From the NCBI RefSeq assembly GCF_964355755.1, contig NC_092680.1, forward strand, positions 6,983,001 through 7,047,000: 64,000 bases of DNA. The letters are read 5' to 3'. The DNA is from Antedon mediterranea (Eukaryota > Echinodermata > Crinoidea > Comatulida > Antedonidae). The notes beneath the pieces are model-generated. The model was not told the origin of the DNA. It searched no databases and saw only the letters and a program-made list of their open reading frames with translations. Made by a program: the position numbers and the translations under genes. Positions 37,161 through 48,570 of this stretch are shown in pieces (positions within the stretch are counted from its first letter, which is position 1; every line of letters begins with the position of its first letter).

Positions 37161-38281
37161 AAAAATGCTACCCTTTAAGTAACAAAACTTAATAGCATCA
37201 GCTCTTCAGATTAAAATTAACACTGATGAATTTAGAAAAGGAAAGTAGCAATAAAAGAGAAAGAATTTGTTACAAATGGGTTAAAAAATATACTATAAAA
37301 ATGTATTTCTTATTTTATTAAAAAAATCATGAGTCTCCTCTCCTTAATTGCCTAAGTCACACAGCTGACTTAGGCAGAAACACAAAAAACGATCTGAGCA
37401 TGTGCAAATGTATATTTATTTATTTTTATTTTATGTCTTTAGGCACTGTGGCCAAGGATTACCAATAGTGAATTAATCACTGTCCTATCAGATAGGTGGT
37501 AATCCCCCTGATACAGAGGCTATTGTGTGAACCAGTTCACCGGGGTAACCCCCTACTCTTTTTCGAATAATGAACTGGGTTCTTTAAAGTACACACATGT
37601 TATAACTGTGTACACTGGACCTACGGTTTATAGTCCTTATCCGAGAAGACTTGTTCCACCACCAGAACTAGGAGCGAGTCGGCCTCGAACCCTTGCCGAT
37701 GTTGTTGTTGGCTCTTTAGGTACGATAAACGGCGCCCCTGCCTTAACCGCTCGGCCATATGACTCGCACTCAGATAATGTACAGAGGGCAGTATAATGAT
37801 ATAAGCAGTGAGTTAGGCAGATCATAAGTCAGCTCTCCTTAATTGCCTAAGTCACACGTCAGCTGACTTAGGCAGAAACACAAAAAATATATTATATTGA
37901 TATAAGCAGTGAGTTAGGCAGAAAAACAACAACAAAATTATGTCTTAGACACTTTTGTTATGAGGCTGTCGATATCATCTATATACAAAAAATGCTACCC
38001 TTTAAGTAACAAAACTTAATAGCATCAGCTCTTCAGATTAAAATTAACACTGATGAATTTAGAAAAGGAAAGTAGCAATAAAAGAGAAAGAATTAAAAAA
38101 TCATGAGTCTCCTCTTTTTAATTGCCTAAGTCACACAGCTGACTTAGGCAGAAACACAAAAAACGATCTGAGCATGTGCAAATGTATATACAAGCACTCA
38201 GACAATGTACAGAGGGCAGTATAATGATATAAGCAGTGAGTTAGGCAGATCATATGTCAGCTCTCCTTAATTGCCTAAGTC
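37161..38281. repeat. Composite tandem repeat with CTGACTTAGGCAG hairpins (block A)
   Basis: Units begin ATGCTACCCTTTAAGTAACA and run through ATCATGAGTCTCCTCT to GCCTAAGTCA-CACAGC-TGACTTAGGC, a perfect 10-bp hairpin, then GATCTGAGCATGTGC and CAGTGAGTTAGGCAG. Two full units start at about 37,165 and 37,992. A SINE interrupts the first. The same units form the block B array at 46,959-48,570. Confidence 0.85.
37415..37767 (-). mobile_element. tRNA-Leu/Ser-like SINE, about 350 bp
   Basis: On the minus strand the head has GGCCGAGCGGTTAAGGC (A box of type II tRNAs) and GGGTTCGAGGCC (B box). A long body follows and a tail of TGCCTAAAGACATAAAATAA with AAATA repeats. A second copy, over 90% similar by eye, is at 62,338-62,690. 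The flanking unit of the tandem repeat is known without this insertion (38,180; 47,060), which shows where it entered. An 89-codon frame inside is not a gene. Confidence 0.85.
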
Positions 38282-38289
38282 ACACAGCT
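38282..38289. repeat. 8-bp target site duplication, left (ACACAGCT)
   Basis: ACACAGCT stands directly before the left terminus of the foldback element and again directly after its right terminus at 39,200-39,207. The base before and the base after differ between the two sides, so the direct repeat is exactly 8 bp. Confidence 0.85.
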
Positions 38290-39199
38290 ATGGAACGCCT
38301 CCTCTGCCTTCAGTTCACATTTATCATGCAGTACACACCAATGGTCATGCAGTACACACCAATGGTCATGCAGTACACACCAATGGTCATGCAGTACACA
38401 CCAATCGTCATGCAGTACACACCAATCGTCATGCAGTACACACCAATTGTCATGCAGTACACACCAATGGTCATGCAGTACGTACCAATCGTCATGCAGT
38501 ACACACCAATCGTCATGCAGTCAAATATTGCGTAATTTATACCGCCACCTATCGACAAAATCGAATATCACGTGACTTTTATTAGACGGCTGTAAAACTA
38601 AGGCTATATACAAACTTTATACTACAGCAACTCACGCTGTCTACTACTACACCGCACGTGCTTTACGTCCTAAAGATTCCAAGATTTATTTAATAGTTTT
38701 TCCAGCCATTTTAGTCATAAAGCACGTGCGGTGTAGTAGTAGACATGCGTGAGTTGCTGTAGTATAATGTTTGAATAGCTAGTTTTACAGCCGTCTAATA
38801 AACGTCACGTGATATTCGATTTTGTCGATAGGTGGCGGTATAAATTACGCAATATTTGACTGCATGACGATTGGTGTGTACTGCATGACGATTGGTGTGT
38901 ACTGCATGACGATTGGTGTGTACTGCATGACGATTGGTGTGTACTGCATGACCATTGGTGTGTACTGCATGACGATTGCTGTGTACTGCATGACGATTGG
39001 TGTGTACTGCATGACGATTGGTGTGTACTGCATGATGTTTGGTGTGTACTGCATGACGATTGGTGTGTACTGCATGATGTTTGGTGTGTACTGCATGACG
39101 ATTGGTGTGTACTGCATGACCATTGGTGTGTACTGCATGACGATTGGTGTGTACTGCATGACAAATGTGAACTGAATGAAGGCAGAGGAGGCGTTCCAT
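38290..39199. mobile_element. Foldback transposon, 910 bp, with 21-bp repeats in its arms
   Basis: The ends are ATGGAACGCCTCCTCTGCCT and its reverse complement. Each arm continues with an array of a 21-bp unit (ATGCAGTACACACCAATGGTC): about 9 units at 38,326-38,520 and about 14 inverted units at 38,860-39,163. Inner arms follow (TTGTCGATAGGTGGCGGTAT and its complement) and a short centre around a GCACGTGCGGTGTAGTAGTAG inverted repeat. There is no transposase. Long inverted repeats built of short tandem repeats are the hallmark of foldback-type DNA elements, and the 8-bp duplication fits an hAT-like transposase, which is inference. Open frames of MQYTPMV or HAVHTNR repeats are products of the 21-bp unit. 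Confidence 0.9.
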
Positions 39200-39207
39200 A
39201 CACAGCT

Positions 39208-40119
39208 GACTTAGGCAGAAACACAAACAATATAGTCTTAAAAACATTGACGCTGTCATTTGGCGTCCAAGTAATGATTATTGTTTAAACGTTTGTATTA
39301 TAGCATGCCTAACAATGATTCGCGCTGTTATATCCTTGGATTGAATGAATATGGTATTTGAAAATAAATAATATGTGCAGTTTAAATATGTATTTTTTTT
39401 TTTTATTTCTCTGTCTTGCATTTTGTATGATCCCGGTATTTTGAACACGCATTGTGATTGTAAGACGACGCTGTTCTCTCTTTGGTTGTAAACTGAAAAC
39501 ATTGACGCACACTGTCATTAGGCGTCGAAGTAAAGATTTTGGGTTTATTTTCTAAAGAATTATCGAACGAATGCTAGATGACCATGTTGAATTATTTTAC
39601 AATAAGACACGCACTGTCCTTGGTGCGGTGGTCTTGAAGAATAGGTTTGTCATAAAAAGTTTACGGTCATTTCATACATCGAACGAATGCAATTGTCTTA
39701 AACGGCAAGGTAGGTATTATACCGCGCCTATATGCGCGCCTTTGCCAGCTGTATTGGTATTGAAGATGTTTGACATCGTCAACGTTTGCCATCGTATGGA
39801 CCTTGGTATCAAGTCTAAATCAATACGAATGCTATTGTGTTAAACGGCAAGTTAGATATTATACCGCGCCTACATGCGCGCCTTTGCCACTCGGTATTGA
39901 AGAAACATTCCAAAAGTATGCTTAGAAATTGTAATACCAATATAGTAAGAAGTATCATCTAGAAGATTACGAACATATCGTATACAAGAAGAGGGAACGG
40001 GTAGTGTTCTCTCTCGGTTTAGGTGAACTGAATGCTTAAAAACATTGACGCGCGCTGCCATTAGGCGTCGAAGTAATGATATGGTTTAAACGTTTTGTAT
40101 TATAGCATGCCTAACAATG
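39208..40119. repeat. Duplicated unique block (block A copy)
   Basis: This non-coding block is shared with block B (48,546-48,927 plus 51,982-52,540) at high identity. It includes CTGTCATTTGGCGTCCAAG, and a phrase TTAAACGGCAAG...CCGCGCC...GCGCGCCTTTGCCA that is itself present twice (about 39,697 and 39,841). No product is recognised in its short open frames. Confidence 0.8.
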
Positions 40120-46958: not shown

Positions 46959-48570
46959 AAAAATATACTATAAAAATGTATTTCTTATTTTATTAAAAAA
47001 ATCATGAGTCTCCTCTCCTTAATTGCAAACACAAAAAACGATCTGAGCATGTGCAAATGTATATAAAAGCGCTCAGAGATAATGTACAGAGGGCAGTATA
47101 ATGATATAAGCAGTGAGTTAGGCAGATCATAAGTCAGCTCTCCTTAATTGCCTAAGTCACACAGCTGACTTAGGCAGAAACACAAAAAATAAAGTATATT
47201 GATATAAGCAGTGAGTTAGGCAGAAAAACAAAACAAAAATTATGACTTATACACTTTTGTTATGAGGCTGTCGATATCATCTATATACAAAAAATGCTAC
47301 CTTTAAGTAACAAAATTTAATAGAATCAGCTCTTCAGATTAAAATTTACACTGATGATTTTAGAAAAGGAAAGTAGCAATAAAAGAGAAAGAATTTGTAA
47401 CAAATGGGTTAAAAAATATACTATAAAAATGTATTTCTTATTTTATTTAAAAAATCATGAGTCTCCTCTCCTTAATTGCCCGGAGCCACACAGTTGACTT
47501 AGGCAGAAACACAAAAAAACGATCTGAGCATGTGCAAATGTATATAAAAGCACTCAGATAATGTAGAGAGGGCAGTATAAATTTATAAGCAATGAGTTAG
47601 GCAGATCATAAGTCAGCTCTCCTTAATTGCCTAAGTCACACAGCTGACTTAGGCAGAAACACAACAAATATAGTATATTTATATAAGCAGTGAGTTAGGC
47701 AGAGCATAAGTCAGCTCTCTTTAATTGCCTAAGTCAAACAGCTGACTTGGGCAGAAACACAACAAATATATTATATTGATATAAGCAGTGAGTTAGGCAG
47801 AAAAACAACAAAAAAATATGTCTTAGACACTTTTGTTATGAGGCTGTCGATATCATCTACATACAAAAAATGCTACCTTTTAAGTAACAAAACTTAATAG
47901 CATCAGCTCTTCAGATTAAAATTAACACTGATGCTTTTAGAAAAGGAAAGTAGCAATAAAAGAGAAAGAATTTGTAACAAATGAGTTAAAAAATATACTA
48001 TAAAAATTTATTTCTTATTTTATTTAAAAAATCATGAGTCTCCTCTCCTTAATTGCCTAAGTCACACAGCTGACTTAGGCAGAAACACAAAGCATGTATT
48101 ATATTGATATAAGCAGTGAGTTAGGCAGAAAAATAACAAAAAAAAATTATGTCTTAGACACTTTTGTTATGAGGCTGTCGATATTATCTATATACAAAAA
48201 ATGCTACCCTTTAAGTAACAAAACTTAATAGCATCAGCTCTTCAGATTAAAATTAACACTGATGAATTTAGAAAAGGAGAGTAGCAATAAAAGAGAAGAA
48301 TTTGTAACAAATGGGTTAAAAAATATACTATAAAAATGTATTTCTTATTTTATTACAAAAATCATGAGTTTCCTCTCCTTAATTGCCTAAGTCACACAGC
48401 TGACTTGGGCAGAAACACAAAAAACGATCTGAGCATGTGCAAATGTATATAAAAGCACTCAGATAATGTACAGAGGGCAGTATATTGATATAAGCAGTGA
48501 GTTAGGCAGATCATAAGTCAGCTCTCCTTAATTGCCTAAGTCACACAGCTGACTTAGGCAGAAACACACA
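46959..48570. repeat. Composite tandem repeat with CTGACTTAGGCAG hairpins (block B)
   Basis: Three further unit starts (ATGCTACC.TTTAAGTAACA at about 47,294, 47,870 and 48,201) and seven CAGTGAGTTAGGCAG-type boxes occur. The GCCTAAGTCA/TGACTTAGGC hairpin is mostly conserved. The last hairpin at about 48,532-48,560 is the empty site for the foldback element of block A. Confidence 0.85.

Follow-up and report, generated by a model that had tools for sequence, protein, structure and literature searches.

The window analysed here, a 64,000-nt stretch of contig NC_092680.1 of Antedon mediterranea, contains a palindromic insertion flanked on both sides by ACACAGCT, and the two halves of a hairpin sit one on each side of it. 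What kind of transposon is this, and are hairpins its chosen targets? An earlier note on this DNA described a palindromic foldback transposon of 910 bp with an exact 8-bp target duplication and proposed that the hairpin had directed the insertion. Our revised features of the locus are:

38273..38282, + strand: left arm GCCTAAGTCA of the split target hairpin
38283..38288, + strand: left copy of the 6-bp target duplication CACAGC (hairpin loop)
38289..39200, no strand: foldback element, TATGGAACGCC...GGCGTTCCATA, 912 bp; limits from the T/A in 46 of 46 simple two-ended copies and from the 6-bp duplications
38289..38323, + strand: left terminal segment
38324..38521, + strand: left tandem array with a 21-bp unit (self-match 0.95 at that period)
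38522..38600, + strand: inner non-repeated part of the left arm, from the arm pair 38324-38600 / 38780-39056
38601..38779, no strand: palindrome centre, with the extra inverted pairs 38607-38637/38747-38777 and 38638-38674/38709-38745
38780..38858, - strand: inner non-repeated part of the right arm
38859..39165, - strand: right tandem array with a 21-bp unit (self-match 0.94 at that period)
39166..39200, - strand: right terminal segment
39201..39206, + strand: right copy of the target duplication CACAGC
39207..39216, + strand: right arm TGACTTAGGC of the split target hairpin
48534..48559, + strand: whole hairpin in a paralogous block (empty site), with a single CACAGC at 48544-48549

Structure of the element and its empty site

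The inverted arms (38324-38600 / 38780-39056) form a 277-nt pair that is 96% complementary, and the outer ends of the element also pair, inside a 41-nt inverted pair. Each arm is built of a terminal segment, then the 21-bp tandem array and then the inner part; long inverted arms made mostly of short tandem repeats are the structural mark of a foldback element. The arm pair and the paired outer ends bear out the earlier description of a palindromic foldback transposon, with the limits moved to 38289-39200, a length of 912 bp and a start of TATGGAACGCC.

The paralogous empty site was also correctly recognised. When the flanks of the element are joined, they align with the paralogous block at 90% identity over 924 columns, the alignment spans the junction, and the block holds the hairpin whole. 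It carries a single ACACAGCT as described, at 48543-48550 instead of 48541-48548. The 6-nt loop of the target hairpin coincides exactly with CACAGC, and the claim that the insertion split a hairpin in its loop is right for the window copy alone. The hairpin GCCTAAGTCACACAGCTGACTTAGGC is itself repeated: eight uninterrupted copies, six of them exact, lie in two paralogous blocks (window 37350-38149 and 47150-48559), and none of the eight has received an insertion, versus the one occupied copy. In block A, at 37845-37873, the same hairpin has a loop 3 bp longer, with CACGTCAGC in place of CACAGC, which could reflect slippage or an old excision scar.

The element belongs to a large family

Searches of the genome (354 Mb, 18 contigs) with a 23-base end of the element, which the earlier note had proposed as a check, returned 224 matches at up to 3 mismatches, versus none for a reversed control pattern. 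The family is thus far above chance, and it is a real foldback transposon family. Exact 17-mer ends number 198 (32, 76, 59 and 31 when divided by preceding base), and 80 stretches, a few of them overlapping, were fetched around a subset of these. At least two 21-bp units follow within the next 300 bp at 165 of 187 end matches, a few of the 187 being spurious. Of the 32 copies of 800-1250 bp, 15 leave an identical remainder when their length is divided by 21, which indicates that whole 21-bp units are gained and lost.

Some copies share flanks. L014 and L016 (C2, 11.84 and 11.89 Mb) have the right flank in common and different left flanks, and L017 and L049 have both flanks in common, which suggests segmental duplication or recombination between copies. 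In L038 and L039 (C5:28664450-28677000), nested and adjacent copies, many one inside another, occupy about 12 kb.

The target duplication is 6 bp long

Duplication length was determined on the 46 loci with exactly one left and one right end (simple two-ended copies), which are not all independent, as flanks are shared, for example between L033 and L034 and between L017 and L049. The left ATGG has a T immediately in front of it, and the right CCAT an A immediately behind it, in all 46. When this T and A are counted as element, a 6-bp duplication is exact in 35 of the 46 copies and present with at most one mismatch in 42, whereas an exact 8-bp duplication around ATGG..CCAT occurs in 6. The exact 8-bp duplication reported earlier is therefore replaced by one of 6 bp. 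In the window, an A precedes CACAGC and a T follows it, a context found at 11 of 54 target sites; the first and eighth letters of ACACAGCT are the target's own bases, identical to the element-terminal A and T, which gives six bases the appearance of eight. In L016, L020, L052 and L055, no duplication was found even when one mismatch was allowed; the right flank of L016 equals that of L014, which suggests a rearrangement.

Hairpins are not the rule at target sites

We wondered whether the hairpin at the window site reflects a general mode of target choice. Target sites were chosen for exact 6-bp duplications, copies with no matching duplication being excluded: 59 were found and 5 near-duplicates dropped, leaving 54, of which two (L038 1916 and 5096) look like one target in opposite orientations. 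As controls, we took 3000 places from window positions 1-28000 and four transposase loci, with base composition matched only roughly.

Full pairing of the ten flanking base pairs occurs in one of 40 distinct empty sites, that of the window. Stems of at least 8 bp near the cut are found at 4 of 54 targets versus 156 of 3000 controls (Fisher p 0.53), and stems of at least 6 bp are rarer at targets (8 of 54 versus 873 of 3000). Stems of at least 10 bp show a weak excess at targets, 3 of 54 versus 40 of 3000 (Fisher p 0.039, uncorrected and one of several thresholds). These three targets are the window, L056 and L066/L065, and in the latter two the duplicated bases are part of a stem arm, next to the loop instead of at its centre. 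Pairing of the ten flanking base pairs about the duplication centre is 0.291 versus 0.280 in controls, and 0.277 versus 0.279 when the window site is omitted. The inner six pairs show a symmetry of 0.315 versus 0.275, a value reached by 53 of 1000 control samples (62 of 1000 for the comparison omitting the window site). The base preference at targets is mainly for G/C at either end of the duplication and for G or C three bases outside.

Hairpin-directed targeting as a general rule finds no support at the 40 and 54 reconstructed sites; among the 54, stems of at least 8 bp are not enriched. Given the single case of full pairing, the weak excess of long stems and the eight uninterrupted copies with no insertion, the window insertion met its hairpin by chance or through a weak preference. 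The earlier note had itself named a different duplication length, or no preference for hairpins, in other copies as telling against its reading, and other copies show both.

The family resembles IS3EU/GingerRoot transposons

TA..TA termini, usually accompanied by 6-bp duplications, are described for IS3EU families and likewise for GingerRoot elements (PMC10045372, in the part available), and fungal IS3EU elements are described with TAYGG..CCRTA ends and 6-bp duplications (PMC12730594, in the part available). The window family has the outer T and A in every simple two-ended copy, 6-bp duplications in the proportions given above, and ends TATGG..CCATA that match the fungal motif; integrase-core transposases are present in the same genome. 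We therefore favour the reading, at a probability of about 0.75, that the family derives from an IS3EU/GingerRoot-type DNA transposon and is a non-autonomous form of it reduced to the arms. It differs from these in that the window copy has no transposase, and in its long arms of 21-bp repeats, a feature not mentioned for IS3EU/GingerRoot in the portions of the sources at hand. A narrow literature search, covering parts of the papers, found no foldback IS3EU family with 21-bp arrays.

The earlier proposal of an 8-bp-duplication foldback (hAT, P/Galileo-like or MULE) inserting by way of hairpins now appears highly improbable. The window copy does present eight identical letters around ATGG..CCAT and a hairpin with 10-bp arms split in its loop, and the excess of stems of at least 10 bp (p 0.039) points the same way. 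hAT, P, MULE and Merlin elements make 8-bp target duplications, whereas in this family 6-bp duplications outnumber 8-bp ones by 35 to 6 among the 46 copies; shorter stems are not enriched at 8 bp and are rarer than in controls at 6 bp, the duplications of L056 and L066/L065 lie off the loop centre, and flank pairing is not above controls. Polinton/Maverick elements are large, encode polymerase B and an integrase and make 6-bp duplications, and a foldback derivative of these or of another large integrase-bearing element would account for the duplication length and for two giant copies whose flanking duplications match (28.2 kb on C3, TAAAAT; 23.6 kb on C6, CTTTGA). Against this, the extra length is LTR-retrotransposon-like in the parts read (the end pieces, along with 8 kb on C3 and 3.5 kb on C6): in the C3 copy, a near-identical 567-bp direct repeat, its copies 6.5 kb apart, abuts the right end, with retroelement-like ORFs, judged by eye, next to it. 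A Polinton identity of the two giant copies was dropped, as the parts read look like nested LTR retrotransposons, and we consider this origin of the family very remote. Dada elements insert into multicopy small RNA genes. A foldback of Dada, hAT6 or some other superfamily that makes 6-bp duplications, with no relation to the PF24764 elements described below, would fit with the finding of no transposase-bearing copy among the window-family ends, and hAT families with 6-bp duplications exist (PMC12730594, in the part available). The targets are varied genomic sequences and copies of the family itself, with no recurrent RNA-gene target noticed in an informal look, and the TA..TA and TATGG..CCATA termini fit the IS3EU description in the available part of the literature, which makes this alternative unlikely.

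Foldback (FB) of Drosophila and TU of sea urchin likewise have long inverted arms of short tandem repeats and are mostly non-autonomous, but their duplications are 9 and 8 bp instead of 6, and their transposases belong to other classes. Galileo, of the P superfamily in Drosophila, shares long arms, many arm-only copies, tandem repeats in some arms and a symmetric target motif (PMC4168063, in the part available). It differs in its P-type transposase and in its mostly 7-bp, rarely 8-bp target duplications, a pattern not seen in the 6-bp duplications here (PMC4168063, same part). Correcting the duplication from 8 to 6 bp thus takes the element out of the hAT/P/MULE-like group and places it in an integrase-related class whose foldback forms are not described in the parts of the literature examined, and it is accompanied by the removal of a claimed hairpin-targeting mechanism. 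The window family is probably a known type of transposon with an interesting repeat architecture.

Transposase-bearing relatives in the same genome

A scan for PF13683, in which 150 of 534 candidates were scored, gave 80 matches, most of them to retroelement-sized ORFs. The first transposase was found beside a PF13683 match and has a PF24764 integrase core (E 1.3e-28); tblastn with the transposase gave 96 genome matches. Five proteins of this genome, representing five lineages, match PF24764 (E 5e-11 to 7.4e-57), and in their alignment D132, D191 and E225 are among the invariant residues. Against the PDB, one lineage weakly matches retroviral integrase (E 0.0012). PF24764 appears to correspond to IS3EU, an equation drawn from the Pfam matches.

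One lineage has element ends TACGAAAGCC..GGCTTTCGTA; its end TACGAAAGCCTATTAGGGCC has 48 genome matches at up to 2 mismatches, versus none for the control. Exact 6-bp duplications flank 9 of 12 end pairs checked, 7 of the 8 transposase-bearing pairs and 2 of the 4 short ones. The arms of L096 exceed 1 kb, are in the part read 95% to 94% alike across 1040 columns, and include a 21-bp array (self-match 0.75) and part of the transposase gene; the array of L097 has a self-match of 0.80. In both L096 (C1:26564745-26570321) and L097, part of the transposase gene lies in each inverted arm and a retroelement-like piece lies between the arms; other members of this family are 12.7 to 22 kb long. In a related lineage, that of L102, which is 71% identical to the TACGAAAGCC lineage over the aligned protein, a 21-bp array (0.85) comes next to the end TACGAAAGCCCATTAATGCC. 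The TACGAAAGCC family also has short derivatives: L114, a foldback of 556 bp, consists of arms only and retains the arrays, and others measure 300 bp (L116), 113 bp (L119) and 72 bp (L115). By analogy with these arm-only derivatives, the window family would arise by the same route.

The two families are alike in TA..TA ends, 6-bp duplications, a subterminal 21-bp array and arm-only derivatives, and unlike in that the TACGAAAGCC family carries a transposase and has a different repeat unit and different ends: TATGGAACGCC and TACGAAAGCC, like the 21-bp units, show no resemblance beyond the first letters. A 21-bp array was not seen in L100, L101, L121, L124 or L125 in the stretches read, which may stop short of the ends. 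On C3, a 21-bp array of different sequence (L120:4880-5300) lies about 1 kb upstream of a fourth transposase lineage; it was not counted as proof, as its sister L121 loses homology before the array.

The earlier note had suggested looking for a related transposase with the same ends. Among the pairs of the 198 exact 17-mer ends, judged by eye, no transposase-bearing copy with TATGGAACGCC ends was found; elements with other TA..TA ends do carry PF24764 transposases. Inspection by eye likewise found no long transposase-like ORF in L033 (5.06 kb), L034 (9.62 kb), L048, L049, L054 or L058; L033 and L034 have the same flanks and the duplication AATTAT. The parent of the window family may have been lost from the assembly, may have diverged in its ends, or may survive among the transposase lineages and work in trans. 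Compared by eye, two transposase matches lie within about 12 kb of element ends (C6:14563201 and C3:15894894), and the stretch read around the former, L099, has no match to the window element. L099:852-2107 (C6) contains an intact 349-aa PF24764 integrase-core ORF, with an upstream exon and intron apparent by eye, and may represent a transposase-derived host gene.

A proposed mechanism and a possible role for the 21-bp arrays

In the mechanism that we propose, an integrase-like DDE transposase, probably of the PF24764 type and supplied in trans, would recognise the TATGGAACGCC ends and excise or copy the element, by cut-and-paste or otherwise. The ends would then be joined to target DNA with a 6-bp stagger, and gap repair would yield the 6-bp duplication, as expected of integrase-type strand transfer. 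Target choice would be loose, with a weak and symmetric preference for certain bases about the staggered cut and many insertions into family copies, and the hairpin at the window site would be an incidental target.

The 21-bp repeats adjacent to the ends probably help recognition by the transposase. A unit of 21 bp corresponds to two helical turns, which places all units on one face of the helix. Binding of the transposase to the arrays is suggested by analogy with Galileo, for which multiple transposase binding sites in the arms are reported (PMC3688188, in the part available). The recurrence of the 21-bp period in unlike sequences leads to a testable idea of why such arms exist. In a sublineage of IS3EU type, the ends might consist of 21-bp units whose sequence is free and whose period is kept, forming a phased docking platform for the transposase; resident arrays would capture incoming complexes, and a platform made of arms only would be a fit parasite. 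We put this forward tentatively, as possible but on balance doubtful. Resident-array capture, if true, would explain about a fifth of datable insertions lying in the family itself and the growth of nested clusters.

Targets inside the family's own sequence make up 11 of the 54 sites, versus none of 2000 control pieces. Seven of the 11 lie in two clusters (L038 on C5 and L041 on C6), and two of these seven look like one site in opposite orientations. Such a pattern might arise because insertions elsewhere are selected against, because movement is local or because resident copies capture the element. Several one-ended copies also lie within 21-bp repeats, with GTACAC or AGTACA adjoining the end.
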